From IMG/VR virus record IMGVR_UViG_3300042314_001189, positions 1-64,000 of that record: a stretch of DNA of 64,000 nucleotides. One strand, written 5' to 3'. Positions 7,701 to 59,678 of this stretch are shown in pieces (positions within the stretch are counted from its first letter, which is position 1; each line of letters begins with the position of its first letter). The notes under the pieces are model-generated. The model was not told where the DNA came from and did not search any database. It saw only the letters and a list, made by a program, of their open reading frames with translations. A program made the position numbers and the translations under genes. Source of the stretch: a virus.

Positions 7701-10544
7701 ATGTCAACAAAAGTATTCGTAAGTCCTGGGGTGTATACATCTGAAAAAGACTTAACATTTATAACACGTCAAGTAGGTGTTACAACACTAGGTTTAGTTG
7801 GTGAGACAACAATCGGTCCAGCTTTCCAACCTATTTTTGTAAGCAACTATGGAGAGTTTCAATCTTTCTTTGGTGGACAAAACGCTACAAAAATAAAAGA
7901 TACTGGAGCACCTAAATATGAATTACCATATATTGCTAAATCATACTTATCACAATCTAACCAATTATTCGTTACCAGAGTATTAGGATTTTCTGGTTAT
8001 GATGCTGGTTTATCTTGGGGTATCACGTTGGATGCAGCTATAGATTTATCTACAACTGCAACAACATCAACAACATCATATGACCCTTTGCTTACGTATA
8101 CGGCTACATCAGCTAATACAAACGTAACTTTGGTTAGTGCTGACCCATTGCTTCAAGCACTTATCGATAATGGTGACCTAGATAGTACTTTAGCAAGTCT
8201 TTCTAATTTATCAGTTTCTGGTACTTTAGATATTATAGACGCTACTCAAAAAACTGGTACAGTATTTAGTGGTCTTAATACGACTTTAGTGGTTACCGCT
8301 AAAGGTACTACTGGTGCTGGTGCTTTCATTACTGGTACGACATCTGGTGTTAGTGTACATTTTTCTGGTACTGGTTATTCTGATGTTGAAAACCAATTAG
8401 TAGCGTTGTTACGTTCTAGAGGTGGTATCAATTTAGATACTCAATTACCAGCGTTTGAGGTTACTGGTGCAACTGGTGTTGTATTTGACCCTACGCAAAC
8501 TGGCGCAACTGAAGATTCTTTAGGTGATTTTGCATTGACTGGTGTATCTACTATTCAAGGTGCGTTTAACTACGTTATGTCTTTAGATAGAACTAAGAAA
8601 AATTACTTACCAAGAGTTTTAGGTAGAACAGTATCTGATGGTAACACAGCTTTGTTCGCTGAAGAATTCTTTAACGTTATGTTTGAAAACTTAAACGATG
8701 CTAGCAAAATTAGAGGTATCAGACAATCGGTTGTTAATTATGGTCAACAATATAGTGATTATTTACAAGAATTCAAACCAGCTGTAACTCCTTACGTTGT
8801 ATCTGAGTTACGTGGTACTAAATTATTAAGATTGTTTAGATTGTGGACTATCTCTGATGGTAACGCAGCTAACGAACAATTTAAAATTTCAATTAGAAAC
8901 ATTAAATTAGATACAAAAGAATTTGACGTGGTTGTTAGAGCTTATTTCGATACAGATGCTCAGCCAACAGTATTAGAAACATTCGCTAAATGTACGATGG
9001 ACCCAACATCTAACAACTATGTTGCTAGAAGAATTGGTACGTTAGATGGTATATATCCTTCTAAATCTTCATATGTACTTATTGAAATGGATGATTCTTC
9101 TGATACATCAGATGCTTTCCCATCTGGTTTCATTGGATTCCCAGTTAGAAATTATCAATTAAATTCAAACGCTACGGTTGTTGAACCTAAATTGACTTAT
9201 AAAACAGAATATGGTGCGTTTGAAAACAAACGTAAATATTACTTAGGTCTTTCTGAGACAGTAGGTATTGATTCAGACTTCTTTGATTACAAAGGTGTTC
9301 CTCAAACTACTACCCCAGATATGTGGACTGGTTTAACTAAAGGTTTCCACATGGATATCGATGCTACTGGTGCAACTATCGACAATGTATCAGTTGTTAT
9401 TAACTCTTCTGGTGGTACTTATAACCCTACATTCTTGTTTGACACGGGTGACTGGCAATTTAGAACTGAGTCTGGTTTGCTTAATGGACCATACGAAAAA
9501 GTATACGCTCGTAAATTTACATTTGTACCTTACGGTGGTTATGATGGTTGGGATATCTACAGAACTAGAAGAACTAATTTAGATAGTTTCTTAATCAACG
9601 GTACTTTAGGTTCTAAAGGTTTATTGAGTGGTGCTTTCCAAAACAGAACACTTACAAATGGTGATAACGGTATCAATTCAGATTACTACGCATATTTGGA
9701 AGCTATCTGGACATTTAGAAATCCAGAAGCTGTAAACATTAACGTGTTTGCTACACCTGGTATTGATAACTTTGATAACAGTAACTTGATTGAAGCTACA
9801 ATCGATATGGTTGAGCAAGATAGAGCTGACTCTTTATACATTATGACAACTCCAGATACTGATGGTGGTGGAGATGTGTTAGGTGTTGAGGACGTAACTG
9901 ATTTCTTAGATGGTATGTACGATAGTAACTATTCTTGTACTTACTGGCCTTGGATTCAAGTTAATGATACTGAAAACAATGTCTATATCTTCATGCCGCC
10001 AACAAGAGACGTGGTAAGAAACATTGCATTGACAGATAACATTGCATTCCCATGGTTCGCAGTTGCTGGTATCCAAAGAGGTGATGTGGATGCGATTCAA
10101 GCTCGTAAAAAACTTACACTTTCAGAAAGAGATGTGTTATACGAAAACAGAATCAACCCAATCGCTACTTTCACAACTGATGGTATCAAAATCTGGGGTA
10201 ACAAAACTCTTCAAGTTAAAGACTCTGCACTTAACAGAATCAACGTTAGAAGATTACTATTACAAGCAAGAAAACTTATTTCTGCTGTTGCTATCAGATT
10301 GTTATTTGAACAAAATGATAACGTGGTAAGAAATCAATTCTTAGCCCTTGTTAACCCAATCTTGGATAACATTAGAGCTCAAAGAGGTTTAACTGATTTC
10401 CGTGTGGTTCTATCAAACGACCCAGAAGAAATCGACAGAAACCAATTGACTGGTCAAATATTCTTGAAACCAACAAGAGCATTAGAGTTCATCCAATTAG
10501 AATTCGTGATTATGAACACTGGTGCGTCATTCGACAACATCTAA
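7701..10544 (+). CDS. gp18: Contractile tail sheath protein (T4 gp18-like)
   Basis: 947 residues against 659 in T4. The N-terminus VFVSPGVYTSEKDLTF is the standard sheath arm. The C-terminal domain (residues about 845-945) has the typical 'RRLLLQARKLISAVAIRLLFE' helix followed by LVNPILDNIRAQRGL and 'GQIFLKPTRALEFIQLEFVI', the strand that joins the sheath mesh. The extra length lies in inserted, outward-facing domains (about residues 110-270 and 420-640), rich in Thr/Gly. The protein forms the contracting outer cylinder around the tail tube. The gene is preceded by a late motif and followed by a strong terminator, consistent with high-level single-gene expression. Confidence 0.93.
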   Translation: MSTKVFVSPGVYTSEKDLTFITRQVGVTTLGLVGETTIGPAFQPIFVSNYGEFQSFFGGQNATKIKDTGAPKYELPYIAKSYLSQSNQLFVTRVLGFSGYDAGLSWGITLDAAIDLSTTATTSTTSYDPLLTYTATSANTNVTLVSADPLLQALIDNGDLDSTLASLSNLSVSGTLDIIDATQKTGTVFSGLNTTLVVTAKGTTGAGAFITGTTSGVSVHFSGTGYSDVENQLVALLRSRGGINLDTQLPAFEVTGATGVVFDPTQTGATEDSLGDFALTGVSTIQGAFNYVMSLDRTKKNYLPRVLGRTVSDGNTALFAEEFFNVMFENLNDASKIRGIRQSVVNYGQQYSDYLQEFKPAVTPYVVSELRGTKLLRLFRLWTISDGNAANEQFKISIRNIKLDTKEFDVVVRAYFDTDAQPTVLETFAKCTMDPTSNNYVARRIGTLDGIYPSKSSYVLIEMDDSSDTSDAFPSGFIGFPVRNYQLNSNATVVEPKLTYKTEYGAFENKRKYYLGLSETVGIDSDFFDYKGVPQTTTPDMWTGLTKGFHMDIDATGATIDNVSVVINSSGGTYNPTFLFDTGDWQFRTESGLLNGPYEKVYARKFTFVPYGGYDGWDIYRTRRTNLDSFLINGTLGSKGLLSGAFQNRTLTNGDNGINSDYYAYLEAIWTFRNPEAVNINVFATPGIDNFDNSNLIEATIDMVEQDRADSLYIMTTPDTDGGGDVLGVEDVTDFLDGMYDSNYSCTYWPWIQVNDTENNVYIFMPPTRDVVRNIALTDNIAFPWFAVAGIQRGDVDAIQARKKLTLSERDVLYENRINPIATFTTDGIKIWGNKTLQVKDSALNRINVRRLLLQARKLISAVAIRLLFEQNDNVVRNQFLALVNPILDNIRAQRGLTDFRVVLSNDPEEIDRNQLTGQIFLKPTRALEFIQLEFVIMNTGASFDNI

Positions 10545-12826: not shown

Positions 12827-13315
12827 ATGGCTGATTTATTAATGAAAATGCCCCTACCTTACGAGCCTAAGAAAAAGAATCGTTGGTTAATCACTTTCCC
12901 AGCAGATTTAGGTATCCAACAATGGTGGTTATCTTCTGCTTCTAGACCTTCAATCACACAAAACGAAGTTGAGATTCCTTTCCTTAACACATCTACTTGG
13001 GTAATAGGTAGATTTACTTGGGAAGCAATTGACGTAACTTTCCGTGACCCGATTGGTCCTTCTGCTGCACAAGCAATTATGGAGTGGGTTCGTCTACACT
13101 CAGAATCTATTACTGGTCGTCAAGGTTACGCAGCTGGTTACAAACGTCCAGTTGAACTTGAGATGCTTGACCCAACTGGTGTTGTTATCGAGAAATGGTT
13201 ACTTGATGGTACCATGTTAACAAACGTTGGATTTGGTGACTTATCAATGGATGATGATGGTATCGCTGAAATCACTGCTACATTACGTTTTGACAGAGCA
13301 ATCTTATTATTCTAA
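12827..13315 (+). CDS. gp19: Tail tube protein (T4 gp19-like)
   Basis: 162 residues, exactly the T4 gp19 size class. The pattern is typical of the family: an N-terminal PYEPKKKNRWLITFP strand, 'SASRPSITQNEVEIPFLNT', 'WEAIDVTFRDPIGPSAAQAIMEW', and the closing 'DDGIAEITATLRFDRAIL'. It stacks as hexamers to form the inner tail channel. It is separated from the sheath gene by the internal-type protein and two minus-strand genes, unlike T4 where 18 and 19 adjoin. Codon use is enriched in C-ending codons (TTC, ATC, CGT) compared with neighbours, as in the sheath gene, which fits high expression. Confidence 0.93.
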   Translation: MADLLMKMPLPYEPKKKNRWLITFPADLGIQQWWLSSASRPSITQNEVEIPFLNTSTWVIGRFTWEAIDVTFRDPIGPSAAQAIMEWVRLHSESITGRQGYAAGYKRPVELEMLDPTGVVIEKWLLDGTMLTNVGFGDLSMDDDGIAEITATLRFDRAILLF

Positions 13316-16020: not shown

Positions 16021-16022
16021 TA

Positions 16023-16051: not shown

Positions 16052-16062
16052 GTTTTAAATGA

Positions 16063-16070: not shown

Positions 16071-16086
16071 AACAAACATCGAAATA

Positions 16087-42409: not shown

Positions 42410-42796
42410 ATGGCAAACGGAAAATATATTAACATAAACTATCCTTTCAAAGATAGTAAAAAGGGTTTTTTCTTAGATTTAACAGAACAAGACAATCAAG
42501 CGATAAAAGCTGACCTTTTACACTTAATTTTAACTAGAAGAGGGCAAAGACTTTACAACCCAGATTTTGGTACTGACTTGCTTAGATTTATCTTTGAACC
42601 AAACGATGCTTTGACCCTTCAAGGTGTTAAAGACGAGATAACAACTGTTGTAAAAAAATTTTTACCTAAATTACAATTAAACGAAATTATAATAGAGCAA
42701 TCACCAGAAAGTGAATATGCGGCTGTTGTAACAATAAGCTATGTAATAACTGATGACGTTTTTACAACATCAGATGTAGTAGTTATTAAAATATAA
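42410..42796 (+). CDS. gp25: Baseplate wedge protein gp25-like
   Basis: 128 residues, the T4 gp25 size. The family core is clear: AIKADLLHLILTRRGQRLYN followed by PDFGTDLLRFIFEPND, and an alternating C-terminal sheet (AAVVTISYVI). It forms the wedge core with gp6 and starts sheath polymerisation. First gene of a long late operon, 9 nt before gp6. Confidence 0.92.
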   Translation: MANGKYININYPFKDSKKGFFLDLTEQDNQAIKADLLHLILTRRGQRLYNPDFGTDLLRFIFEPNDALTLQGVKDEITTVVKKFLPKLQLNEIIIEQSPESEYAAVVTISYVITDDVFTTSDVVVIKI

Positions 42797-44688: not shown

Positions 44689-45069
44689 ATGGGATGCAAT
44701 TGTAAAACTGGTGGGACACCTAATCCAAACTTTAAATCAAACAATAATGATTCTGGGGTGAATCCTAGACATAAGAATTTATCTTCTTTTTTAGGTTATA
44801 CAGCTAAACTAATTGGTTTTTTTGTTGGCCTTTTATTATTACCGTTAATAAACGTAGCCATTGTTTGGTTTATGTTTAACACATTGGTTTTAACGAAAGA
44901 AGTAGATGTAAGAGGGTTATTTTCCAGATTAACAAAAACAAAAAAGTTTAAATCATTAGTGAAAGACGAAGATGATGAGGACGAAGATGACGATGACGAT
45001 TATGAAAATTTAACTGAGGATGATTTGATAATGGTTGATGTCGAAGATATAACACCTAAGAGCAAATAA
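44689..45069 (+). CDS. Small membrane protein with cysteine-rich N-terminus and acidic tail
   Basis: 126 residues. N-terminus MGCNCKTGG. Residues about 37-70 (LIGFFVGLLLLPLINVAIVW continuing to FMFNTLVL) are one long or two short membrane segments. Residues 85-126 are extremely acidic (DEDDEDEDDDDDYEN). Unknown function. It lies 5 nt before the 1492-residue protein that also has hydrophobic segments, so the two may act together at a membrane. The MGCNC start could be a metal-binding or acylation site; neither is shown. Confidence 0.7.
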   Translation: MGCNCKTGGTPNPNFKSNNNDSGVNPRHKNLSSFLGYTAKLIGFFVGLLLLPLINVAIVWFMFNTLVLTKEVDVRGLFSRLTKTKKFKSLVKDEDDEDEDDDDDYENLTEDDLIMVDVEDITPKSK

Positions 45070-45074
45070 ATTTT

Positions 45075-48000
45075 ATGTCAGAAACAGTAAGAATAAGGAC
45101 AAAACCAAATGGTTCAGACAAATACCTTAAAGTAAAATTAGACCAAGAATTTGATTTCATTGAAGTTCTTTCAATGAAAATAACACAAGAAGAGGCGTAT
45201 AGAAACTTCTGTTCTGATTATGGTGTAATTGTAGGTAGAGTAATCATCAACAGTGGCTTTGGTTTACCAAACGCCAGAGTTAGTGTATTTATACCAATTG
45301 ATGATGTTGATAAAAATGACCCACAAATAAAAGGGTTATATCCTTATTCTATTGTTTCTGATAAAGATAGTGATGGTATTAGATACAATCTATTACCTAA
45401 ATCAAGTGAAACCAATAACGAATGTTTTACACCAATAGGTACATTTCCAAACAAAAGAGAAATATTGGATAATGATGAATTATTAGGTGTTTATTGCAAA
45501 TATTACAAGTTCACAACAACAACAAATAATGCTGGTGATTTTATGATATTTGGTGTGCCACTAGGCACATATACCGTACACGTGGATGCTGATATATCAG
45601 ATATCGGTATTGTATCTCAAAGACCATACGATTTAATTAGCCAAGGAACACCACTTAAATTTTTTGATAGTCCTACCAAATATAAAGGTGGTACAAATTT
45701 AGACAAATTAGTTCAAATCAAATCAACAAATTATGGTGTAAACGTACAACCTTTCTGGGGTAGTACTGATAATTGCGAAATAGGCATTACCAGAGCTGAT
45801 ATTGATATGAATTACAATATCAGACCATGTGCTATGTTCATGGGTAGTATTTTTGGTGACCAAGAAAAAAATAGTATAAACAAAAGATGTAGACCCAGAA
45901 AAAAACTAGGTCAGTTATGTGAACAAATAGCTGGCGAAGGTTCTATTGAGATGCTTAGAGAAACTATTGATGGTGGGGTTGAACAGTTTGATGTTGATGG
46001 TGGTCGATTAATAGACGAAGATGGAACATGGGCGTATCAAATACCTATGAACCTAGATTACGTTGTTACTGATGAGTTCGGTAACCTAATACCATCTGAT
46101 GATGAAACAAAAGGAATACCAACTAGAGCAAGTGTAAGGTTTAAAATAGGGATGGACAATACTGGTGGTGAAGGTAGGCTTAGAACAAGAGCCAAATATT
46201 TAGTACCTAATAATCCTAATTCTGTTTCTGAAATAGATTACACATTCAATGAAACAACAAAGAAAACTAGTTTTAGAAGTTTATATTGGAACAAAATATA
46301 CAGCGTTACCAACTTTATACCTAGATATCAAACATCTGACAATAAAAAAACAAGAGCGTTTACAGCTATAAAAGATGTCGATGGTTGTGCTGGTGATAAG
46401 ACAACGTTTCCTTTTAATAAAGTTAATACTGATTTTAGCCCTATATTTTTCATCATTTGTTTAATCATAAAAATAATTGCATTTTTAATTTATATTATGA
46501 ATGCGTTTTTAATTAAATTAGTAAACATAATCATAGGTGTTTTGAATGCTATTCTAAAAGTGATATGTAACATAATTTTTAGCATAGGTAAATTCATTAA
46601 TAAGATACCATTTGTCAGTGTAAATGTATGTAATTGGTGTATTGGTAATGGTTGTTGTAATTGTAGTGATATCTTAGGTTATATACCTTGTATTTGGGTA
46701 CAATGTCCCTTTGACGCTGATGCTGGGACTGGCTTGTATGCACCTGGTTGTAAGGAAACTGATAAAGGGTTTGAAGCGGTTAAAACAAACACTGGGTATT
46801 ACCCAACTTTTTACCCTGGTGATGATTTTGACCATCCAGATAAATTTGGTGATGCAGCTGGTTTAGATAAATGTGTCGCTGCTGTACTTGCTGAGAGCTT
46901 AGGTATATTCCAATTTGATTTTTACAATGATTGGGTAAATGGTACCTTATATGGTTATTTATTAAAATATAAAAGAAAGAGAAGAAAATCTGAGAGATTC
47001 TGTGAATATGATTGTGATGATTTCTTCAGCCAAGGTGGTGTAGATGGAAACAAAAATAATAACCCAGATAACAATTGTAGAACAAATTATTTGTTTGATA
47101 GTTGTTATAACGGTGGTGATGACTCACAAGATGAATTAAAATCTAGAGGTGGTGTTAGGGAAGGTTTGATAAAAAAGATTGACACTTTCCAAAATGGTAA
47201 AAAAATAAATGAAGAGTTTTTCTATGCCGCATCCCTTCATGATGCATCAGCAAAATTATTTGCAACTGATATTATTTGCATGGGTTCGGTTTTTGATTGT
47301 GATTGGCAAGGAATACCAAAGGTTCAATCATTATTGATACCTACAACATATAAAATACCACCAATTGTAGTTGAATTGACAGACGATAACCAAACTGTTG
47401 AAACAACTGGTATGATTGGTACTGGTGGTAGTTTACAAGGCTTGTTTTTTGAAGTTGATTGTATTGGTTTACATTCAGATTACAGTCAATGCTTAAATAT
47501 TAGACATTTATCTGAGTTTGGTGTTGATTTAGACCAATTACAGTTTGGCGCACCCTCAGCTTCATACCCTAATGGGGCACCGATTTATGCTGATAATAAC
47601 ATAGGTATAAAAGATATTGACGAAAACGGTGGTATTTGGTTTAGAGATGTGTATTACGAATTAAACAAAATCCCTAATCAAAATTCGTTTACGTTAGTGC
47701 CTTTTACAACCAGCTTTAACCTTAACGATGCCGCAACTTATTCGTTCTCAAACAATACTGATAACGGTGTTAACTATTCTAGTTTTAGAGGTTACCCTAG
47801 CGGTTCTGAGTCACAATTTACACAACCTAAACACTCGTATTTTTTCTACTTTGGTATTCTACCAGGAAAAGGTGCTTTAGAAAAATTAAACCAAAGATTT
47901 TTTACAAGATGTTTACCAGTAACTGAAAAAGAATTTAACGTTCTTGCTACATCACAATCAGCAACGGGGTCAAACCCTACTGGTTCGATAACGTTTAGTG

Positions 48001-49553
48001 TGGTTTCTGGTACAGCACCTTTCACATACACGATTAGTGGACCAAATGGATACAATAGTACTGGAACAATAGCTGCTCCACCAGCACCACAAACAGTTAC
48101 TATAACTAATTTACCAGTTGGTACTTATACAATACAAGTTGTAGATGCAAATGGAAATGTTGTAACCCAAAACACAACAATAGATGGACCACCAGCCTTA
48201 TATGCAACGGCTTCTGTTACTAAATTATGTAGTTCAGCTAGTGTTCAAGACGGTGAAATTACAATAACTAGTATAGGCGGTGGAACTGGCGTTTGGACTT
48301 ATCAATTGTTAAGAAGCAACGGTTCCGTAGCAAAACCAGTAACATCGATTTCTACCTCACCATTGATAATAACTGGTCTAGGTGCTGACACTGGTTCTGA
48401 TGGTTTAACACCACCGAATTTTGGTTATAAATTATTGGTTAGTGATGGTATAACAACAGTCACAATTACTGATTTGGTTTTAAACGGACCAACACCAGTT
48501 GTTTTAAGTGTTTTAACTCAGACACCTACAACATGTTGGGAATCAGCAGATGGCACATTCAACATAGGTCTTACTGGTGGTCAAGGTCCTTACACAAATA
48601 CAATAACTGGTCCAGCTGGTTTCCCATCTACAAATGGTTTATCAGTAAACGATGCGATTAGAGGTACATATACGATTACAACAGTTGATAATTACGGAAC
48701 AACAGATACACTATCTGTAATAGTACCTAGTTTAAATGTACAGATGATTGCATCAATGGCACCAACTGCTCAATTAAATAAACAATGTGACCCTAACAAT
48801 TATATTGTACCGTTTTACGTTACTGCTGGTGCAACTGCTGGACCAATAAAAATACAATACAATGTTGATGACAACACTGGTAGTGGTTTAGATTTAATTT
48901 GGAATGATGTTATATTAACATATGTTAATGCTTCAACACCTATGTTTGTTACAATACCAAACCCTAGCGGTGGGTTAAATAGCGGTATTAAAATAAGGAT
49001 GAAATCACCAGATGGTTTATGTTTTAGTAATATTTTATCAATTAATAAAGCTAGTATTGAATTACCTATCAACACATTATCGATAAATACAACTGGAATA
49101 AACAACGCTCAACAATGTAATCCAAACCTTGTATCGTTTAAATTTAATGTTAGTCATTTACAAGCTGGCTCAACAGCACGTCTACCTTATACGTTTGTTT
49201 ATCAAGTAAATGGTGGTCCAACAAACACTGTATCGATAACAACTAACCAACAATTGATAAACGCAACAATGCCGTCTATATCATCTAGTGCGGTTATAAC
49301 TTATACAATAACTGATAATAAAGGTTGTGTGGCTAGTGGAACATTACCAACAATAACAATGCCTACACAAGCATTAACTGCTTATTGGACATATAATACT
49401 AGTGTAACACCTAACACAAAATCACTAGTGATTAACGGTGGTTTAGCACCATATTCAACAGCACCAGCTGTAAACTCACTTAAATCAGCGATTCAAACAG
49501 TTAGTGTTAGTGATAACGTTGGTTGTACATTCATCACACCTTCTAGTACTTAA
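45075..49553 (+). CDS. Large baseplate/tail protein with membrane segments and SprB-like repeats
   Basis: 1492 residues. The N-terminal part (about 40-190) holds carboxypeptidase-regulatory-like beta sequence (GVIVGRVIINSGFGLPNARV, FMIFGVPLGTYTVHVDADIS). Residues about 454-516 are strongly hydrophobic (FFIICLIIKIIAFLIYIMNA, IIIGVLNAILKVICNIIF), followed by a cysteine-rich patch (NWCIGNGCCNCSDIL). Residues about 955-1220 contain repeats of SprB/PKD type: SGTAPFTYTISGPNGYNSTG with NLPVGTYTIQVVDANGNVVT, and TGGQGPYTNTITGPAGF with RGTYTITTVDNYGT. The last 270 residues are further Ig-like strands. Its place after gp6 is where T4 encodes gp7. Membrane segments in a virion protein are unusual and suggest envelope insertion. 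Function inferred. Confidence 0.6.
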   Translation: MSETVRIRTKPNGSDKYLKVKLDQEFDFIEVLSMKITQEEAYRNFCSDYGVIVGRVIINSGFGLPNARVSVFIPIDDVDKNDPQIKGLYPYSIVSDKDSDGIRYNLLPKSSETNNECFTPIGTFPNKREILDNDELLGVYCKYYKFTTTTNNAGDFMIFGVPLGTYTVHVDADISDIGIVSQRPYDLISQGTPLKFFDSPTKYKGGTNLDKLVQIKSTNYGVNVQPFWGSTDNCEIGITRADIDMNYNIRPCAMFMGSIFGDQEKNSINKRCRPRKKLGQLCEQIAGEGSIEMLRETIDGGVEQFDVDGGRLIDEDGTWAYQIPMNLDYVVTDEFGNLIPSDDETKGIPTRASVRFKIGMDNTGGEGRLRTRAKYLVPNNPNSVSEIDYTFNETTKKTSFRSLYWNKIYSVTNFIPRYQTSDNKKTRAFTAIKDVDGCAGDKTTFPFNKVNTDFSPIFFIICLIIKIIAFLIYIMNAFLIKLVNIIIGVLNAILKVICNIIFSIGKFINKIPFVSVNVCNWCIGNGCCNCSDILGYIPCIWVQCPFDADAGTGLYAPGCKETDKGFEAVKTNTGYYPTFYPGDDFDHPDKFGDAAGLDKCVAAVLAESLGIFQFDFYNDWVNGTLYGYLLKYKRKRRKSERFCEYDCDDFFSQGGVDGNKNNNPDNNCRTNYLFDSCYNGGDDSQDELKSRGGVREGLIKKIDTFQNGKKINEEFFYAASLHDASAKLFATDIICMGSVFDCDWQGIPKVQSLLIPTTYKIPPIVVELTDDNQTVETTGMIGTGGSLQGLFFEVDCIGLHSDYSQCLNIRHLSEFGVDLDQLQFGAPSASYPNGAPIYADNNIGIKDIDENGGIWFRDVYYELNKIPNQNSFTLVPFTTSFNLNDAATYSFSNNTDNGVNYSSFRGYPSGSESQFTQPKHSYFFYFGILPGKGALEKLNQRFFTRCLPVTEKEFNVLATSQSATGSNPTGSITFSVVSGTAPFTYTISGPNGYNSTGTIAAPPAPQTVTITNLPVGTYTIQVVDANGNVVTQNTTIDGPPALYATASVTKLCSSASVQDGEITITSIGGGTGVWTYQLLRSNGSVAKPVTSISTSPLIITGLGADTGSDGLTPPNFGYKLLVSDGITTVTITDLVLNGPTPVVLSVLTQTPTTCWESADGTFNIGLTGGQGPYTNTITGPAGFPSTNGLSVNDAIRGTYTITTVDNYGTTDTLSVIVPSLNVQMIASMAPTAQLNKQCDPNNYIVPFYVTAGATAGPIKIQYNVDDNTGSGLDLIWNDVILTYVNASTPMFVTIPNPSGGLNSGIKIRMKSPDGLCFSNILSINKASIELPINTLSINTTGINNAQQCNPNLVSFKFNVSHLQAGSTARLPYTFVYQVNGGPTNTVSITTNQQLINATMPSISSSAVITYTITDNKGCVASGTLPTITMPTQALTAYWTYNTSVTPNTKSLVINGGLAPYSTAPAVNSLKSAIQTVSVSDNVGCTFITPSST

Positions 49554-49561: not shown

Positions 49562-51367
49562 ATGGAAAGAACACAACAAAGATTAAATAAAGAAAAATCT
49601 GCATTATCAGTAAACACTGACACTACTTTAAAAATCAACATTGAAAATAGTCAAAGACTATTACCAACAAATGAAATTAATAAAATAGTTAATGTTGCTG
49701 AAAGATTTAATATTGAAAGACAAAGATGTAAATATTATCGTATTATTGGTACGATGAACACAACAATGTCAAACGTTTTATTTAATCTAAAAAATTCTGC
49801 CATGTCTGACAAGTATACATGGTCTTGGTTTAATTCTTTAGACTTTCTAGACACTTCATACCCAAAAGACAACGATATCATTGATGATACCGATTTGACA
49901 TACCCAGCGTCCTTAAAAACAAACTTAAAAGAAAAAGATGGTTGGTTTGGTTGCTATGACCCAGATATTGCAAAAGCTGCTTTATGTAATTATTTTGACA
50001 TGGAGCCAAAGAGAGAAAGATTTTATTTTACACCAGACATCATGCCATATATGGGTAACGCAAATTCCCAACCAGTGAAAAATTGGGAATTAACCATTAC
50101 GTACCCAAAAGAAATGGATAAAGCACATAATTTTGTAAACGGTGGTCTATTAATAACTGAAGCGGTTAGTGCGACAATAGCAACAAGACCAATGACAGCT
50201 ATTGGTATGTCATGCATGCATAATTTAAAAATAGGTGATGTTGTTAGGGTAACTGGAACAACTGGTTATGATGGTGACCATGTTGTTGTTAGAACTGGAT
50301 TAGATAATGGTGATTTTAAAGAATATTACTTTGTTATAGATAAACCAAATACTGGTGTCTTAGGTGCAAATTCTAGGATGAAAAGACTTGTAAACAACAT
50401 TGAATCAGAGTATTATTTTAGAATATTTAGAAAAATAAAAACTAGAGTGGCACCACTAATTGAAACGGATGATTACGAAGCTTACCGTGTTGGTTTTAGT
50501 GAAAACTTCTTTAACGATTCAATAATTCAGTTTGTTTTTAATGAAGATATAGATGTTACTGAATTAACAGATAACCTAGGCAGACCATTAAGTGAACTTT
50601 ACTTAACTATTATCAAAACAAATAGCAACAATTTATTTACAAATGTTTCATCTGGTTTTGAAACACCATATGCATCTAGACTAAATAATAGTAACACTAT
50701 AAGTTATTTAAGAAATATTCCTACGATACATAAAATACATAATGGTGGTTCATTACCATTTCCAACACACACACCATTGGAAAACGATATTAACATAAAC
50801 AACAATAATAATATCACAAACAATAATGATTTTTATGGTGATTTGGTAGAGTACAATATTAATGAATTAACTGAAGTAGTATTGGCTAACATCCAACACA
50901 GATTTAACACAGTAAATAGAGAAACAAACCCATCTTTAACATATGTTTCAGATAGAGGGACACCGCTTAACCCATCGTTTATAACAAAAACGATTACAAT
51001 GGGCCCAAGACAAGAAGGTTATTATTATCAACCACATCATTTAATTAAAATAAGAGAATTTTCTACTTATATCGAACAAGGTGATGAATTTACGGAAGGT
51101 ATACCTAGCTACGCAACAGATTTAGGTGATGGTAGAATAATATGGAGAGATTTACTAGACATAGGTTTCAACGAAAGTGATGAAAAACCATTGGATTATC
51201 CATTTTTAAATGGCTCTCATTACATGTATCAAAACTATTGTTTTACGGTTAGAAGACAAGACCCATTCGGTGTTTGGAATTTATATTACAGCAAATTCCC
51301 AGAAGACCCAGTTGGTGATAGAATAACAGATAAATTTAAAACCAATACAGAAGAAGATGTTTGCTAA
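49562..51367 (+). CDS. Virion structural protein (baseplate region)
   Basis: 601 residues, unrecognised. Helical start (RTQQRLNKEKSALSV, NEINKIVNVAERFNIERQRC), then beta-rich sequence with SWFNSLDFLDTSYP, DVVRVTGTTGYDGDHVVVRT and an Asn-run linker (DININNNNNITNNNDF, about 415-430). No signal peptide or membrane segment. It lies 8 nt downstream of the large membrane-segment protein and overlaps the next gene by 11 nt, so it is part of the same baseplate-periphery set; T4 has gp8 at the equivalent place, but I see no convincing sequence match. Confidence 0.6.
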   Translation: MERTQQRLNKEKSALSVNTDTTLKINIENSQRLLPTNEINKIVNVAERFNIERQRCKYYRIIGTMNTTMSNVLFNLKNSAMSDKYTWSWFNSLDFLDTSYPKDNDIIDDTDLTYPASLKTNLKEKDGWFGCYDPDIAKAALCNYFDMEPKRERFYFTPDIMPYMGNANSQPVKNWELTITYPKEMDKAHNFVNGGLLITEAVSATIATRPMTAIGMSCMHNLKIGDVVRVTGTTGYDGDHVVVRTGLDNGDFKEYYFVIDKPNTGVLGANSRMKRLVNNIESEYYFRIFRKIKTRVAPLIETDDYEAYRVGFSENFFNDSIIQFVFNEDIDVTELTDNLGRPLSELYLTIIKTNSNNLFTNVSSGFETPYASRLNNSNTISYLRNIPTIHKIHNGGSLPFPTHTPLENDININNNNNITNNNDFYGDLVEYNINELTEVVLANIQHRFNTVNRETNPSLTYVSDRGTPLNPSFITKTITMGPRQEGYYYQPHHLIKIREFSTYIEQGDEFTEGIPSYATDLGDGRIIWRDLLDIGFNESDEKPLDYPFLNGSHYMYQNYCFTVRRQDPFGVWNLYYSKFPEDPVGDRITDKFKTNTEEDVC

Positions 51368-52205
51368 TAAAGTTAAAATCAACATGTCAACAATACCTTC
51401 TGGCGCAACTGGTACAACGATTACAGTTCCAATTAACATGACGTTTCAGAATGTTGATAATGCGGAATTGATAGACAGAGTATTTGTTGAAACAGAAGTG
51501 GAGAATGCTATTAACCCAATCATAGATTATGAAAAAGTTAGGTTCCTACCTTTGGATTTACAAGGCACATATATTGATAAAATCATTTACGATGTTTACT
51601 TGTTAAACCCTACACAAAATTATGTAGGGTTTTATGGTAATATTGGGTTTACTGATGATGATATAAAATTTAGAAAAGAATCTTTTAAACAAACATTTTT
51701 AAGGTTGAGTTTTTATGATACCGATAATCCATTAACACAATCATTGGTTAGTTTTTTAACATTGTATTCTGAACTAAATTCTTCTGATTTACAACAACCA
51801 GGTCCAGGTATAATACCAGGCACCCCAAAACCAGCAAATCAAATACCCGTTAACTTTGTTGTTGAAAGTCCTTTGTTGAACCCTATGGGTTCTGCTGAAG
51901 GATATCACTTATATGATTACAAAAGTGAGTTAAATATAGGTGAGTCAAAGTATTTATATATGAGAGCAACGCTAGCAAATGCTAAAACGGGTAAAATTGT
52001 TAATTTAATGGTTAAAAATGTGGCACAGCCAATTGATAAACTAGTGCATGAACTTTACACTAGATACAAAATGGTTAGAACGGCTACTGGTTATTATTAT
52101 GAAATAGACAATACCTACCAAGGAAATGGCATTTCTGGTCAAAATAACGTAACATACAACACAAACACGTCTGTTGTAAAACTTTATGAAATAAATGCCA
52201 CATAA
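51357..52205 (+). CDS. Virion structural protein (282 aa)
   Basis: Unrecognised. The ATG at 51357 overlaps the previous gene by 11 nt; an alternative ATG at 51384 (MSTIPSGATGTTITVPINM) would avoid overlap. Beta-rich with a Pro-rich linker (QQPGPGIIPGTPKPANQIP, about 147-165), which suggests two domains. Its stop overlaps the next ATG (TAATG). Confidence 0.6.
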   Translation: MFANKVKINMSTIPSGATGTTITVPINMTFQNVDNAELIDRVFVETEVENAINPIIDYEKVRFLPLDLQGTYIDKIIYDVYLLNPTQNYVGFYGNIGFTDDDIKFRKESFKQTFLRLSFYDTDNPLTQSLVSFLTLYSELNSSDLQQPGPGIIPGTPKPANQIPVNFVVESPLLNPMGSAEGYHLYDYKSELNIGESKYLYMRATLANAKTGKIVNLMVKNVAQPIDKLVHELYTRYKMVRTATGYYYEIDNTYQGNGISGQNNVTYNTNTSVVKLYEINAT

Positions 52206-53086
52206 TGGAAGTCATTAAAAGAAAAATATTACTAGAAAACAGTATTGATAGAAGCAGTGAAAATAAAAATTGGGGTACGTTAACAGCGACAACTTTTTAT
52301 TTAAAAGTTTTGATAACTCAAAACGTTGATGATATGGGTTTGTTTACAGATTCTGAATTTATCGTAAAAGATAAAGTTTCAACACCAGCTGACTATACAA
52401 TATTAAAGGATAAATTAACAACACTAGGTCTTTTATTCCCATTTATGACTGGTGCAACTGGCCCTACATTTACAACAAACAATACACCAGAAACATTATG
52501 GAAAGTTTTAAGGTATCCGATAAATACGGTGTCAAATTACTACAATTTTAGTAATATTGTTATTACTGGTGCCACAGATAGTAGAATTGAAGATGTTAGG
52601 TCATATGCTGCAATCAACCCTTTTAGAACAAATTTTAACGTTAACACTGAAACATATACAAACTACAACAACGTAACAGTAAACGGTGTTGATAGAATCA
52701 AATCAATGTCCGACCCTAAAATCTATGTTTTTGATACACCAAATGACACTAATTTAGGGACAAATAACCAAGTTTATGGGTTACAATTCATGGACTATAG
52801 CGGTGTCACAAGACAAATATTGGTTGAGGATGAAATCACTGTAGTACCTTTAACAACTTACCGATACATAGGCGAAGGATTTAATGAAACAAATATTTCA
52901 TTATCGGGATTGACCAAAGAAGAATATTTATTTGGTATAATTTCTCCACCAGAAGTTCAAAACGATGTATTTATAGATAGAGGTATAACAACTGTTATGG
53001 ATAGGCATTTAAAGCTCTCTGAAATAAGAAATATAAAAGAGTTAGAAAACTACGGAAACGGATATTATAAACTAAATAAACAATAA
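52205..53086 (+). CDS. Virion structural protein (293 aa)
   Basis: Unrecognised. Soluble, Asn/Thr/Tyr-rich beta sequence (TLTATTFYLKVLITQNVDDM, NYYNFSNIVITGAT, YIGEGFNETNISLSG), with a helical C-terminus (RHLKLSEIRNIKELENY). Coupled at both ends by overlapping stop/start codons, so its ratio to neighbours is probably fixed by translation. A wedge or fibre-connector role is inferred from position. Confidence 0.6.
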   Translation: MEVIKRKILLENSIDRSSENKNWGTLTATTFYLKVLITQNVDDMGLFTDSEFIVKDKVSTPADYTILKDKLTTLGLLFPFMTGATGPTFTTNNTPETLWKVLRYPINTVSNYYNFSNIVITGATDSRIEDVRSYAAINPFRTNFNVNTETYTNYNNVTVNGVDRIKSMSDPKIYVFDTPNDTNLGTNNQVYGLQFMDYSGVTRQILVEDEITVVPLTTYRYIGEGFNETNISLSGLTKEEYLFGIISPPEVQNDVFIDRGITTVMDRHLKLSEIRNIKELENYGNGYYKLNKQ

Positions 53087-53226
53087 TGACAGAAAAAGAA
53101 AAAGAATATAATAAGAAGTGGTTACTTTCATACCATTTGTTATTACCTTTAGATGAAATAAATAAATTAAATGACCATGAAATTAACATCATGGTCAATT
53201 TTATAAATAATAAGTTAAAAAGTTAA
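53086..53226 (+). CDS. Small protein (46 aa)
   Basis: ATG at 53086 overlaps the preceding stop (TAATG); TAA at 53224-53226; the next gene starts 3 nt later. Sequence MTEKEKEYNKKWLLSYHLLL, then PLDEINKLNDHEINIMVNFI and a basic end. Helical, amphipathic. It fills an otherwise unexplained gap with coupling on both sides, which argues that it is translated. Unknown function; possibly an assembly chaperone for adjacent baseplate proteins. Confidence 0.6.
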   Translation: MTEKEKEYNKKWLLSYHLLLPLDEINKLNDHEINIMVNFINNKLKS

Positions 53227-53229
53227 GAT

Positions 53230-54153
53230 ATGGCAACAGGAACATACGGAATAGTAAGACCAGCAGATATTTCCCCAGATGATGTGGAGATTTTTTATCA
53301 TTTTACACCATCTAGAGATAAAGCTGGTGATGCTGGACTAACAAAATTAGACCCAAATATAGTTTTAAAGAAAATCGATAACCCTAACAAAGTTCAATCG
53401 AATGTAACTGGATTTGAAGTTTTTGGTGGGATGTATACACTTACATTACCAGTTGCCAATTTTAGTACAAAAGGTTTTTATACAATTATTATAAAACCAG
53501 TTGAAATTAGAACCAAAATAGTTGATGTTGGTGTGTTATCATCATATCCAGATATCAAAGGTTTATTGTTTGATATAGCTAGCGTTCCTACAAATTTTTC
53601 AAATAGATTTGAAAACAACGGATTGGTTGGTTATAGAATTGAATATTTGGACACAACAACATCTAGACCAGACGCAAAAGTTAATAACTTTTTCAGAGTC
53701 ATCACATCAAATAACAGAGCTGAGCCAGTAAACCAAAATTTAACGAACACAAATCAAAAAGCTATCAGATATAGGTTCAACGATAATTCAAGTTTAACTT
53801 TTTGTACTGTTTCACCAGCATCTGCACCAAATGTCAAACCAAATGCGTTGCCGTTTATCGGACAACCTAACCAAGAAATAATTATCACAAATACTTTCTT
53901 CAACCCTATAATGATAGAAGTTGAAATGGTTGAACATGATGTTGAAACACTTGCATTTGCAATCTTTGGTAATCAGACTAAGAGTCTTGAAGATGGTATT
54001 TACACAATATACAACTTTAATAATGATATTTATAAACAATACAATTTATACGAAATAAAAGACCAGTTTACTGGTAAATCATTGTTTGAGGTTAGAGAAC
54101 AAAGAACAGCGATTGATTTTAGTAAAACTTTTAATAATATAACAACAATCTAA
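53230..54153 (+). CDS. Virion structural protein (307 aa)
   Basis: Unrecognised. Starts MATGTYGIVRPADISPDDVE. Beta-rich (FGGMYTLTLPVANFSTKGFY, IIIKPVEIRTKIVDVGVL), no membrane segment. About 8 nt upstream of the 910-residue baseplate-type protein and 3 nt after the 46-residue gene. 'GIVRPADI' openings occur in baseplate periphery proteins of other myophages as far as I recall, but this is weak. Confidence 0.6.
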   Translation: MATGTYGIVRPADISPDDVEIFYHFTPSRDKAGDAGLTKLDPNIVLKKIDNPNKVQSNVTGFEVFGGMYTLTLPVANFSTKGFYTIIIKPVEIRTKIVDVGVLSSYPDIKGLLFDIASVPTNFSNRFENNGLVGYRIEYLDTTTSRPDAKVNNFFRVITSNNRAEPVNQNLTNTNQKAIRYRFNDNSSLTFCTVSPASAPNVKPNALPFIGQPNQEIIITNTFFNPIMIEVEMVEHDVETLAFAIFGNQTKSLEDGIYTIYNFNNDIYKQYNLYEIKDQFTGKSLFEVREQRTAIDFSKTFNNITTI

Positions 54154-54160: not shown

Positions 54161-56893
54161 ATGGCAAAAAAGATAAAAGTAGCTGGGTATTCACAGAAAA
54201 TTTCATACGATGGAAACATTGAATACAGAGATTTTAGTCCAGATTTAGTAGGGTTACAACTGGCAAGTGATGGTGGTACCCCATTGTTTACAATGGGTAA
54301 TTTTGCTATTACGACCAACTTAGACCCAAAATTAGATAAAAATTATATTACTGGTAAATTTTCTGATTTTTTCACACTAGATAAATTAGACTTAACAGTT
54401 GAGCAATCAGTAAAACTTTTAGAAAATAACGCAAGTGTGTTTTTAAATTTAGATGAATCTAAATTAAAAAACTATGCGTTATTTGGTTCTATGGTTGAAT
54501 ACTTTAGGGTTACGCTAGAAGAAATAATATCTAAATGGCCAGCCGCTTTATATATTACACCTACAACTTTTTTTGATAATCAGTTTATTAACGGTTTTAC
54601 ATTTGAAGATTACACTTACGATTTTATAACCAATGAATCTAGTTTTAAGTTAAACACTACGTTCATCAACAATAAATTTAAGATAAATTATTTAGCCAAC
54701 GGAACGATTTCAGATTCCTTCAATCAAGAAAATGATTTAAGGAATTTAACGGTAAACTATAAATCATACGCTATCTTGGTAAATAGCACAGAATATGACC
54801 TTATTGGTTTCACTGGTTCTACATATGAACAAGCTGATTATGTTTATTTTAAAGTAAAAGGTGATGTTTTTTCTGGTGCAACAACTGGAGCTTACTTATA
54901 CTACCATATTAAACCTAACAAAACTATTGAAAATACATTTTTCAATAGTTTAAATGGATTACATGAATATTTGTTGAATAGGTACACACTACCATTATAC
55001 ACAGCTACATTTAACTTCCCAGTTAGAACACAAAGCGGTATTTTATTGTATTCATCCAAATCTGTTAAATGGCCAGTAACTGACGGTTATAATATAGATT
55101 TTGACACTACAGAATATATAAATTACGCAACAGAACTATTCGATTTATCAACAAACTATGATTTAAACGAAACAGATTTGATGACTAGATTTTTGGTTTC
55201 TGAGTCGATATCAGCTTTTGATACAACACCAGTACGTTTGGCTGAAGTTCATCAAGACACAACAACTGGTCAAAAAGTTAATAAAACACTTAAAATATAT
55301 GGTAGGTCTTTTGATGATATAAATCAGTTTATACAAGGTATTTCTTTTGCACATGTCGTAACATACAATAGACAAGACAACGTTCCAGATGCATATTTAA
55401 AAGATTTGGCAAGAGTTTTAGGTTGGGACTTGGTTTCTTCTGTTATTGAGAATAATCTTTTGGCTAATTATGTTGAAACTGATAGTTCAAATTACGCTGG
55501 TCAACCAGTTGGTTTAACAGCAGCACAAGCAGATATTGAACTATGGAGAAGAATAATTTTGAACTCACCATGGATTTGGAAATCTAAAGGTGCTAGAAAA
55601 TCAATAGAGTTCCTTTTAAACTTTATTGGAACACCAATGGGGTTGGTTACTTTTAATGAATACATCTATAGAGCCAAAGCACCTATAGATATTGATTTAT
55701 TTTTAGATGTGTTAGACTTAAATAGTCTAGATGCTGATTTATCATTATACGCTGTTGACAATGATGGTTACCCAAAAACATTACCAGAAACTCCAGATAT
55801 GTATTTCCAAAACTATGGTCTTTGGTATAGAGAAACTGGTGGTACTGGTGCAACAATAGATATAACTAGTGGTAACAACCCACACGTTGGACCTTACGAT
55901 GGGGGTTCTAAATATATAAATCAATTTAGAACACTTATACCTAATTTCACACCAGTAACTGTAACAGCGTCAACAGCTGTTACATCTGAAAGAAACTTAT
56001 TCTTGAATTATTCGCTAGGTGAAATAACAAACTATACTGGTGATACATATGTTGAAGTTGTTAATGAAGATGGTTCTGATTTAGGTGATTGTATTGTTTA
56101 CGAGACAGAAATAATCAAAGACCCAATGCCAGAGGATATTTTAACACCATGTGGGTGCCCATGTGAAGGTGAAGATGAGTCTTTGAGTATTTGTGTTAAA
56201 AAAACAGACCCAAAACCAGTAAAACCATGTGAAACATTGGCAAACCCACCAAAAAACGATACAACTTTGGGTTTATATGTGTTTAATGTTAATAAATACG
56301 ATATCAACGGTAATCTAATCAATGGTATCACTAATAAAACTGCTTTTATTGATAAAGAATGTTGTAGTTATTTAGGTGGAAAATCTACATATGCCGATTC
56401 AATTTATCAAGGTGCAATACCTTCAAATCCAAAATTAGTAACTAGTGGTTTTGTTTGTTGTACAACAGAAAGATGTGGTTGTAACGTTACTTGTAATTGG
56501 GTCATAACTAAAGACCCAATATATTTACCACAAGGCTCACCAACAGCTACACCTTACTTAAACTTTGTAACCCTATATGGTTCTGGTATAAATAAGGTTG
56601 TTGTTTCAGATGCATCGGCTTGTCCACAAAAAACGGTTGCGGTTCCAAATATAACAGACCCTTATACTGGTGAAGTTGGTATTGGTTGTAAGTTAACACA
56701 AGAATTGATAGATGACTCAAATTCATATGATGAATTATACAACTATTATCAATTTAAAGCAAATAATTTCAACGGGGTCGAGATAGTTGTTGGTGATTTT
56801 AAAATTGGTTGTTGTGAATTAACATTTGAGACATATTTGAAGTATGCTGAAGCAATTGGGTTAACACAATCTGGCCCAACAGCTTTAGCATAA
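54161..56893 (+). CDS. Baseplate protein with gpI-like module and cysteine-rich C-terminal region
   Basis: 910 residues. The N-terminal third is Asn/Phe/Thr beta sequence. Residues about 400-490 read PDAYLKDLARVLGWDLVSSV, ELWRRIILNSPWIWKSKGAR, KSIEFLLNFIGTPMGL; this follows the P2 gpI pattern ('LA..LG.D....R..+.....+KGT..A+..LL..+G') that pairs with gpJ/gp6 in wedges. Residues about 660-780 have clustered cysteines (PCGCPCEGEDES, ECCSYLGG, VCCTTERCGCNVTC). The end has CCELTFETYLKYAEAIGL, echoed in the next protein. It may be the true gp7-like wedge partner. Confidence 0.6.
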   Translation: MAKKIKVAGYSQKISYDGNIEYRDFSPDLVGLQLASDGGTPLFTMGNFAITTNLDPKLDKNYITGKFSDFFTLDKLDLTVEQSVKLLENNASVFLNLDESKLKNYALFGSMVEYFRVTLEEIISKWPAALYITPTTFFDNQFINGFTFEDYTYDFITNESSFKLNTTFINNKFKINYLANGTISDSFNQENDLRNLTVNYKSYAILVNSTEYDLIGFTGSTYEQADYVYFKVKGDVFSGATTGAYLYYHIKPNKTIENTFFNSLNGLHEYLLNRYTLPLYTATFNFPVRTQSGILLYSSKSVKWPVTDGYNIDFDTTEYINYATELFDLSTNYDLNETDLMTRFLVSESISAFDTTPVRLAEVHQDTTTGQKVNKTLKIYGRSFDDINQFIQGISFAHVVTYNRQDNVPDAYLKDLARVLGWDLVSSVIENNLLANYVETDSSNYAGQPVGLTAAQADIELWRRIILNSPWIWKSKGARKSIEFLLNFIGTPMGLVTFNEYIYRAKAPIDIDLFLDVLDLNSLDADLSLYAVDNDGYPKTLPETPDMYFQNYGLWYRETGGTGATIDITSGNNPHVGPYDGGSKYINQFRTLIPNFTPVTVTASTAVTSERNLFLNYSLGEITNYTGDTYVEVVNEDGSDLGDCIVYETEIIKDPMPEDILTPCGCPCEGEDESLSICVKKTDPKPVKPCETLANPPKNDTTLGLYVFNVNKYDINGNLINGITNKTAFIDKECCSYLGGKSTYADSIYQGAIPSNPKLVTSGFVCCTTERCGCNVTCNWVITKDPIYLPQGSPTATPYLNFVTLYGSGINKVVVSDASACPQKTVAVPNITDPYTGEVGIGCKLTQELIDDSNSYDELYNYYQFKANNFNGVEIVVGDFKIGCCELTFETYLKYAEAIGLTQSGPTALA

Positions 56894-56945
56894 ACAACTA
56901 CATATAAAGTAATAAAATAGAAAATAATAATATAAAAATAAAAAA

Positions 56946-59678
56946 ATGGCAGATTCTAAGACTACAACATTTGGTGATGAAATATGTACAGTATTGTTAA
57001 GAAATATTGCTAATTCAATCAAAAAAGATGACGCAACTAATAGTTCTGCGTATTACCAACAATATGGTACACTAAATGGTTATACACCGTCACAACAAAC
57101 TGTGGTGTTAAATCAAAATGGTGATATCAACGTTTTTTTGGTATACAACGGACAAAACCAACCTATAGAATTGGGTAGTTATTGTTGTAAAACAATGATT
57201 CCAAAACTAATAACATCAGCTAGCCAATACTTTCCAAATGTAACTAGTGGTGATATATATTGGGATGATAACACACAAAAATGTAGATGGAAAACTTCAT
57301 CTAACGGTAACGATTGCGTTATAGATACCTTTAAAATAGTCTTAAACCCAGTTGGTAATGATGGAAGCCTTTTCAATACTGAAAGTGGTGAAAAAGAATG
57401 TAGTTTGACTGTTGATTTTAATTATCTTTTTAAATTAGAATGTGAAAATCTTGCTGATATATTAAACCCAACGATACCAGTAAATGTTGACCAACAAACA
57501 CTGGATGAAATAAAAAAATTAGAAGCGGAACTTTCAAATTTAGAAGCGGAGTGTGAATCAATAACGAGCAAACTTGAATTAACTATTTCAGAATATGAGA
57601 AAAGTTATTATTCAATGGTTTGTGATAATGTTTCTGTTGAAGATTTTTTAAAATACGCAGAAGCGGTTGGTTACGAAGGAAAAGCTGAACCAGTAAGACA
57701 AATTGTGTCTACAAAGAGTATTGCCACAGCAAAAACTGCGTTTGGAAAGACTGGTTTTGGCGGTACACCATTCGCTTTTCCAGCTTTAAGTAATAGCTCA
57801 ATTATAATAAACGCAAATACTAGTGTAACAATTTGTATTAACGAAGAAAACGGTGGGTTAACTGTGTTACAGAACTTACTAGGTTTAGATAAATACCAAA
57901 GGTTTTTAGACGGTGACCCAACATCTTATACGTGTTCTAACGTAATAGAAATGGTTGTTTTAAGTTACGAATCTATTCAAAATGGTGATTTAGAATTGGT
58001 GTTTGAATGTACAACACCTTTTGGTTTTAAAACACGATTAAAAAAAGAGATTGAAATTTTAACCAAATTATCAAAAGAATGTGATGATAAAGTAACCGCA
58101 TTAGAAACACAAATAAATACATTAAAAAGCGATAATGAGTTAAACACCGCTATTTGTTCTACACCATCTCAAGTATTAGAAACGCTTGATGTATCTATGA
58201 CCATTGATGTTATAGAATCAAATGGTACTTTAAGTACAGTATATGAATTTAATTTATTCCCTTCTATTGGTAGTGGTAACTTGTACACATACTTAAAAAA
58301 TCACCCAACAGATAGTGGTTTTTATATTTGTGGTGAACCTAAACAAACAGAAACATTTGCTAGTGGTTGTACAGTAATTAAATACCAAAAAACTGAGCTA
58401 AGCGGCTCAATCGAACCAGTTCTTAGCAATTGTGCACCACAAGACCCAAGCGATTTTTACTGTAACGTTCAATCTTGTATGCCAGTTAAAGATAATATAT
58501 TGGAATCGTTGTTCACCCAATCTAGTTTTACAAATAGTGTGGATGATTTAAAATCTTTTAGAGATTCTTTATCTCAAACTATTTTAGCTTCTAAATGGTT
58601 AAATTACACAACTGAAATAACAGACCCAGATATTATATCAAAAATAGAAGATAAAAAAATAACTTTATCGATAAAAATAAACAACACATGTTCAAATATA
58701 TGTGTTTTAGTTGATAATTTAAAATTAAATAAGATTTGTATTGACGGTGAAGCAAAAACTATTAAGGTTGATAAATCACCTGGTTTTGAATTGGAAAGAA
58801 TTATTGATAATAAAAAATCATGGATTAAAAATACAACACCAGTTAGTAGAACTTTTGACATAAAAAATAATCTAGGTGACAATAGAATTAGACAAACAGA
58901 GTACAACGTAAATGACGAAAGATTAGTCATAAACACAAAAGAAATTGATTTAGATATCAATTTGGCTAGTGCTGTTGAACACGATGTTTGGTGCTATGTT
59001 GTTGACAATCCATGTTTATTGACTGGGGTAACATGTGAAGATGTATTCACAATAGACTCACCATGTTGCCAAACTGGAACAACGTGTGGGGATAATCAAA
59101 TTGATTTTGATTATTTGTTAACTAGTTCGTTATCAACTGTTGATACTGTTGAAGAATTTGAAAATTTAATTTTATCTGAATTGATAGACGCTAAAGATAG
59201 AAAAACATTATCTGGATATCCAACTCTTAGAGCATTATATGATAGGTATTTGAATAGTACAAAATATTGTGGAACCGAAAGTTCAAAATACACATACGCA
59301 ACAATGGAACAATTTGCTGCTTTGGTTGGTGATTATTGGACAGACATTATTGAACAAGTTGTACCAGCAACAACAATATGGGGTAGTGTAAAAATTTATA
59401 GCAACACAATATTTGACCAACAAAAGTTTAAATACAAAAATGGTAGTTTGTTTATATGTGATGATTATGCTGCTGAAAGTATTGCTTTTGATTTAACCGT
59501 TGGCGTTGATAAAACAACAATAAGTAGTGGGGGTACATTACAACCAAACACAAAGGTTCAGAAATGTACTGGTGTTTATTTAAAACAAATAAATGCTTCT
59601 TCAGAATTTATTGGAACAGTAACAATTACTGAAGGTTCTGTAAAATCAGATAGTGATGGTGAAATTAGATTGAAGTAA
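56946..59678 (+). CDS. Large cysteine-containing virion protein (910 aa)
   Basis: Unrecognised. N-terminal globular part, then a coiled coil (LDEIKKLEAELSNLEAECES, about 190-215), then SVEDFLKYAEAVGY (about 225-240), which matches the end of the previous protein. A second coiled coil lies near 370-400 (LSKECDDKVTALETQINTLK). Many cysteines occur in pairs (YCCKTM, SPCCQTGTTCGD). C-terminal 120 residues are beta-rich. The leader is A-rich with no promoter motif in the 52-nt gap. Probably part of the baseplate periphery. Confidence 0.6.
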   Translation: MADSKTTTFGDEICTVLLRNIANSIKKDDATNSSAYYQQYGTLNGYTPSQQTVVLNQNGDINVFLVYNGQNQPIELGSYCCKTMIPKLITSASQYFPNVTSGDIYWDDNTQKCRWKTSSNGNDCVIDTFKIVLNPVGNDGSLFNTESGEKECSLTVDFNYLFKLECENLADILNPTIPVNVDQQTLDEIKKLEAELSNLEAECESITSKLELTISEYEKSYYSMVCDNVSVEDFLKYAEAVGYEGKAEPVRQIVSTKSIATAKTAFGKTGFGGTPFAFPALSNSSIIINANTSVTICINEENGGLTVLQNLLGLDKYQRFLDGDPTSYTCSNVIEMVVLSYESIQNGDLELVFECTTPFGFKTRLKKEIEILTKLSKECDDKVTALETQINTLKSDNELNTAICSTPSQVLETLDVSMTIDVIESNGTLSTVYEFNLFPSIGSGNLYTYLKNHPTDSGFYICGEPKQTETFASGCTVIKYQKTELSGSIEPVLSNCAPQDPSDFYCNVQSCMPVKDNILESLFTQSSFTNSVDDLKSFRDSLSQTILASKWLNYTTEITDPDIISKIEDKKITLSIKINNTCSNICVLVDNLKLNKICIDGEAKTIKVDKSPGFELERIIDNKKSWIKNTTPVSRTFDIKNNLGDNRIRQTEYNVNDERLVINTKEIDLDINLASAVEHDVWCYVVDNPCLLTGVTCEDVFTIDSPCCQTGTTCGDNQIDFDYLLTSSLSTVDTVEEFENLILSELIDAKDRKTLSGYPTLRALYDRYLNSTKYCGTESSKYTYATMEQFAALVGDYWTDIIEQVVPATTIWGSVKIYSNTIFDQQKFKYKNGSLFICDDYAAESIAFDLTVGVDKTTISSGGTLQPNTKVQKCTGVYLKQINASSEFIGTVTITEGSVKSDSDGEIRLK

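Follow-up and report, generated by a model that had tools for sequence, protein, structure and literature searches.

The route by which DNA passes from a contractile tail through the envelope into the cytoplasm is called essentially unknown, T4 included, in one published account (PMC11054660). In the short-tailed phage phi29, long hydrophobic loop helices of gp9 exit the tail knob and assemble into a barrel whose outer surface is hydrophobic (PMC6542822). Thylakoid contractile injection systems are anchored by a membrane helix of Cis13 together with a baseplate extension of Cis12, and removal frees the particles (PMC8894136). In the T6SSiv of Bacteroidota, a site on the baseplate mediates attachment to the inner membrane (PMC8894135). 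Within baseplates, wedge proteins of the gp6 and gp7 types pack into helical core bundles (PMC10457771). Here, we describe a 1492-amino-acid protein encoded in a baseplate operon of an uncultured virus (IMG/VR record IMGVR_UViG_3300042314_001189, a contig of 137,444 bases), of which we analyzed positions 1 to 64,000, the window. The protein carries a long, conserved hydrophobic helix, and its gene directly follows a small gene for a protein with a membrane segment. Our tentatively preferred reading of these sequences is that helix and small partner would form a membrane-inserting module that probably acts at entry.

The conserved hydrophobic helix

The gene, the parts of its product, and the small partner gene are as follows.

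45075..49553, plus strand: family gene, 1492 amino acids, matching the open reading frame exactly
45075..46430, plus strand: N-terminal core, residues 1-452, with a prealbumin/CarboxypepD-like domain at about 49-173 (from conservation, the structure model, a sub-threshold Pfam match, and Foldseek)
46440..46601, plus strand: hydrophobic helix, residues 456-509, with a polar stripe (K466, N476, N484, N491, K495, K506, N509)
46602..46907, plus strand: cysteine-rich part of the insert, residues 510-611
46908..47918, plus strand: second half of the core, residues 612-948 (FDFYNDW ... NSYYFYFG)
47919..49550, plus strand: variable C-terminal region, residues 949-1492, with SprB-type immunoglobulin (Ig) repeats (Pfam SprB; Ig/FN3 structure matches)
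44689..45069, plus strand: small partner gene, 126 amino acids, with an MGCNCK start, a membrane segment at about residues 33-69, and an acidic tail

The segment at residue 457 reaches a 19-residue Kyte-Doolittle mean of 3.03, the highest among the 39 window genes examined. The second-ranking value, 2.65, belongs to the adjacent gene at 44689-45069, and all others are at most 1.86; that is, the two most hydrophobic segments of these 39 genes sit in neighboring genes of the baseplate operon. AlphaFold2, run on residues 1-1125 with 48 sequences (mean predicted local distance difference test [pLDDT] score, 82.9), models a single continuous 54-residue helix over residues 456-509, with a pLDDT of about 92 up to residue 490 and of 50-67 near residues 500-530. 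In relatives in which the region is intact, a hydrophobic stretch of about 20 to 120 residues lies at the same site, the exceptions being the five variants described below. The position of the helix is kept from freshwater relatives (40-60% identical) to rumen relatives (about 35% identical), and C462 and N476 are invariant, rumen relatives included. The long hydrophobic segment pointed out in the initial annotation of this DNA is therefore real and conserved across the family.

The helix is also patterned. Mean hydropathy along residues 456-509 is periodic at 99 degrees (p<=0.0002 against column shuffles; none of 5000 shuffles reached the observed periodicity over residues 456-509, and 1 of 5000 did so over residues 456-495). 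The residues of the polar stripe are conserved and share one side of the helix, and the remainder is almost wholly hydrophobic. An amphipathic helix that is soluble in water would show the reverse; an oligomeric membrane helix would be expected to look like this one. The initial annotation had proposed that the segment spans a membrane; its conservation, its inside-out pattern, and the accompanying small membrane-protein gene strengthen that proposal, and insertion itself is what we infer from these sequence features.

Around the helix, the mean column identity of 49 non-redundant relatives falls from 73-82% over residues 1-420 to 60% over residues 451-480 and to 23-54% beyond residue 960. By these alignments, the core is conserved and the C-terminal end is exchangeable. 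Ten cysteines (C272, C462, C544, C600, C643, C647, C668, C742, C796, and C946) are invariant in the same relatives, which bears out the cysteine cluster noticed initially. The model places the first of the Ig-like sandwiches at residue 954. Foldseek searches of the PDB with this model returned only FN3/Ig-type matches, and searches with a core that naturally lacks the helix (L168; see below) returned only weak, local matches to prealbumin/pilin-like domains, so that beyond these local resemblances no known global fold was found for the core. A CarboxypepD_reg domain, for which the initial annotation had suggested a profile search, was not borne out: the match to PF13620 scores 16.9 bits against a Pfam cut-off of 32.3, and 8 of 25 relatives match at E<=0.01.

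The small upstream gene and helix-poor variants

In most relatives, a small gene lies between gp6 and the family gene and encodes a protein with an M-[GSA]-C-x-C-K start and a hydrophobic segment; the acidic tail is found in the freshwater group. The gene is conserved, yet its product in the window has no confident family match. We considered whether its membrane segment and the large helix have a common origin, suggested by shared P-x-x-N motifs, and rejected this idea (hhalign probability, 0.7%; ungapped score inside the shuffled null). In a few loci, extra open reading frames of about 300 amino acids, possibly homing endonucleases, lie beside the small gene within the baseplate operon (L172:5069-5974, the same in L185, and L116:4748-5665).

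Among 87 dereplicated loci, 67 carry helix and small gene together, 17 carry only the helix, and 3 have no helix or a weak one and no small gene; the small gene thus accompanies 67 of the 84 helix-bearing loci. Before dereplication, the helix is lost, weak, or shrunk in five loci (L121, L168, L152, L188, and L189), and all five are without the small gene. In each of them, the family gene starts no more than 40 base pairs past the gp6 stop, so no gene fits in between. The chance that all three helix-poor dereplicated loci would lack the small gene is about 0.01, unadjusted, and we regard the association seen in these sequences as suggestive. L121 and L168 are 76% identical and both nest within the main group that has helix and small gene (for the placement of L121, bootstrap is 94 and the Shimodaira-Hasegawa-like approximate likelihood ratio test value only 68); their joint loss of the two elements was probably a single event. 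L152 has as its sister L150, in which the helix is present and the small gene absent; the branch leading to L188 is very long.

The same variants show what kind of element the helix is. The elements that flank the insert are joined by 11 residues in L121 and by 34 in L168, and in both C539, C544, C559, and C600 vanish along with the helix, others such as C643 and C742 remaining. An AlphaFold2 model of the L168 protein (775 amino acids) has a predicted template modeling score (pTM) of 0.83 and the same strand pattern, with only two short helices at the site. Because L168 folds confidently without the long helix and L121 bridges the site with 11 residues, the helix is an insert rather than part of the monomer core. 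At the level of the monomer, then, these models indicate that the helix is not the hydrophobic core, burial within an oligomer being possible. A segment buried in a globular core, which the initial annotation had set against its own proposal, is thus countered for the monomer by the five natural variants that lack the helix or keep a weak remnant of it.

The marine relatives L149-L167, L183, and L187 have no small CxC gene upstream, and in them a Y-P-x-C-x-x-C-x-C motif follows an insert that is often much longer. Across the marine clade without the small gene, the hydrophobic insert is often longer, as if the role of the partner had shifted into the large protein.

Entry, assembly, or burial

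Under our tentatively preferred reading, the protein would have three layers. The conserved core (residues 1-452 and 612-948) would sit in the baseplate near gp6, the helix-plus-cysteine insert (about residues 456-611) would be a membrane-active module, and the variable SprB-like Ig tail would point outward. In the virion, the hydrophobic helices would be shielded, presumably bundled together and with the small CxC membrane protein. At infection, they would be released and would insert into the host membrane as a bundle, with the Asn/Lys stripe turned inward and the hydrophobic face toward lipid, making a pore or collar for the tube or the DNA. For hydrophobic helices that leave a phage tail to make a barrel, the nearest precedent is phi29 gp9 (PMC6542822). 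The initial annotation envisaged a channel that crosses the inner membrane once the tail has contracted, which is a guess. A broader version, in which a widespread clade of uncultured contractile phages uses a dedicated two-gene baseplate device (the Asn-striped helix insert plus the small CxC protein) to form a passage through the host membrane on contraction, is possible but doubtful. If insertion at entry holds, the family would offer a genetically marked, naturally removable device for crossing the envelope, spread over a very large set of uncultured phages whose variants with and without the helix are on hand in nature for tests.

Several observations weigh against insertion at entry. The present evidence fits entry and assembly alike, and a single helix of 54 residues exceeds the length needed for one membrane crossing. 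The 17 helix-bearing loci without the small gene, 14 of which are one marine clade, also count against it, and the loci in which both elements are missing amount to very few independent events. Finally, T4 gp7, in a comparable operon position, scores membrane-like (2.07) though it is part of solved baseplates.

The helix and small protein might instead fix the baseplate, as it grows, to the producing cell's inner membrane and have no use at entry, which we consider rather unlikely. Anchors of this kind have precedents in Cis13/Cis12 (PMC8894136) and T6SSiv (PMC8894135), and the small protein looks like a membrane protein, with no sign of a receptor role. However, the Cis13 and T6SSiv systems remain in the cell, whereas a phage has to detach, and the fast-varying SprB-like tail suggests exposure on a released particle. 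Profile searches of the PDB found no homology to the Cis13/Cis12 or T6SSiv anchors. Were tethering during assembly the true role, these phages would have their own equivalent of the contractile injection systems that are anchored in membranes.

We judge it just as unlikely that the helices pack against one another or against gp6 as a hydrophobic core of the baseplate and never meet a membrane. Such packing would resemble the helical core bundles of gp6-type and gp7-type wedge proteins (PMC10457771), and contacts between helices could run through Asn-rich stripes. In T4 gp7 the C-terminal segment is membrane-like, yet the protein belongs to solved soluble baseplates, in whose entries gp7 chains are present, so a membrane-like score can arise in a wedge protein. 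The hydrophobicity seen here is nevertheless far above that of T4 gp7 (3.03 versus 2.07) and extends over most of the surface of the helix; natural variants do without the helix, unlike an essential core bundle; and the adjacent small membrane-protein gene would be left unexplained. Nor is homology to gp7 detectable: for the 1492-amino-acid protein it was rejected (hhalign probability, 0.2%; E=0.31), and for the neighboring proteins none was found. Separately, gp7 is absent from the 50 best Foldseek hits of each of the two models, lists in which Ig and pilin domains predominate.

The SprB-type repeats bear on a further alternative. The window protein passes the Pfam SprB model (PF13573) narrowly, at 29.9 bits against a gathering cut-off of 28 (E=4e-7), and 20 of 25 diverse relatives match at E<=0.01 (best E=1e-25), in agreement with the repeats recognized in the initial annotation. 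Three gut relatives tested gave no SprB match, though they share the core and the helix, and gut and rumen relatives have long, different C-terminal regions. Similar repeat segments occur in giant open reading frames of 86 of 150 Flavobacteriaceae genomes, with best identities of 33-46%, so any capture from a host would be old; recent capture from flavobacteria is unsupported. The window protein has no match to the type IX sorting domain (Por_Secre), and SprB repeat annotation already exists in other uncultured phages. One of the 25 relatives (alignment A5) gave a weak match to a type IX secretion sorting domain (E=0.0026). The acquisition or mimicry of host surface proteins proposed initially is thus weakly supported, favored by the flavobacterial repeats and weakened by their low identities and by the gut relatives without repeats; an old Bacteroidota repeat serving as an exchangeable outer decoration fits these observations. 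That the protein is essentially a captured end of the SprB gliding adhesin for surface binding, its hydrophobic stretch incidental, is very improbable. In its favor are the score above the Pfam cut-off and the flavobacterial repeats; against it are the distant identities, the confinement of the repeats to the last third, their absence from the three gut relatives, the missing sorting domain, and the other SprB-annotated phages.

Gene context, family, and known systems

Neighboring and contextual genes of the window are listed here.

42410..42796, plus strand: gp25-like baseplate protein, 128 amino acids
42806..44623, plus strand: gp6/Baseplate_J-like wedge protein, 605 amino acids
49562..51367, plus strand: downstream neighbor, 601 amino acids, conserved, function unassigned, with homologues in 138 fetched loci
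7701..10544, plus strand: contractile sheath protein (context)
12827..13315, plus strand: tail tube protein (context)

The gene order is gp25-like, gp6-like, 126-amino-acid gene, 1492-amino-acid gene. This synteny, with the sheath and tube genes elsewhere in the window, confirms the initial placement of the family gene inside a baseplate operon, and its product would be a structural protein of the virion or baseplate. A hub-like protein is encoded at 14451-15755, and T4-type genes for replication and nucleotides are also present. The phage is contractile-tailed, and its host group is probably the Bacteroidota. The sheath at 7701-10544 has 947 amino acids, and sheath families match its last third only, leaving a long N-terminal part unexplained. 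Large structural-looking genes at 20618-25069, 49562-54153, and 54161-59678 have no confident family match. Two downstream genes of 910 amino acids were considered as paralogues, which was rejected on comparison. In L088, elsewhere in the same phage, a gene for 908 amino acids (13660-16386) has an anti-restriction-like C-terminal part (phrog_7245, E=3e-19).

A scan of IMG/VR with the window protein as query found 172 relatives, and a broader alignment found at least 595 matching stretches. In one contig (L075:1010-5671, shared with L107), the family gene is broken into three open reading frames, through frameshifts or sequencing error. Six loci match in GTDB bins: one is a Zobellia bacterial repeat protein, and the other five, which come from gut or rumen bins and are probably phage contigs, belong to the family. 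Among the cultured-phage records of INPHARED, there was no match for the window protein or for rumen, helix-less, or marine relatives. The window protein matches no PHROG family at E<=1, and rumen relatives give weak hits only. Against viral models (BFVD), Foldseek returned one full-length match, A0A8S5LA66 of Myoviridae sp. ctPuP5 (31% identity, E=5e-79), a family member that is metagenome-assembled, uncharacterized, and unannotated. The family is thus large and, among the searches made, is without a PHROG and without a cultured or solved member.

Each of the described systems resembles this locus in part. The protein shares SprB-type repeat units with SprB of gliding Flavobacteria; unlike SprB, it has no detected type IX sorting domain and carries the repeats only in its variable C-terminal third. 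Like T4 gp7, it is a long wedge-type protein with a membrane-like segment (annotated in the T4 GenBank entry as a "predicted integral membrane domain") encoded after gp6, directly in T4 and after one small intervening gene here; the gp7 segment, however, lies at residues 879-907 of 1032 rather than in mid-protein, and its peak is 2.07 rather than 3.03. With Cis13/Cis12 and T6SSiv, the locus would share a link between a membrane helix and the baseplate of a contractile apparatus, but those are cell-bound injection systems, and the helix of the window protein lies mid-chain. Taken together, the findings suggest that phages of this family bring their own parts to cross or grip a membrane. The pore-forming L loop of phi29 gp9 is a long hydrophobic insert in a protein of the tail tip. 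The protein described here has such an insert, its synteny may place it at the tail tip, and the inside-out helix pattern is found here as well (99-degree period, p<=0.0002). No gp9 chain is among the PDB profile matches; phi29 is short-tailed, a small membrane-protein gene accompanies the window protein, and a barrel would here be a proposal from sequence. The likeness of the window protein to the phi29 gp9 loop would be one of working, without relatedness.

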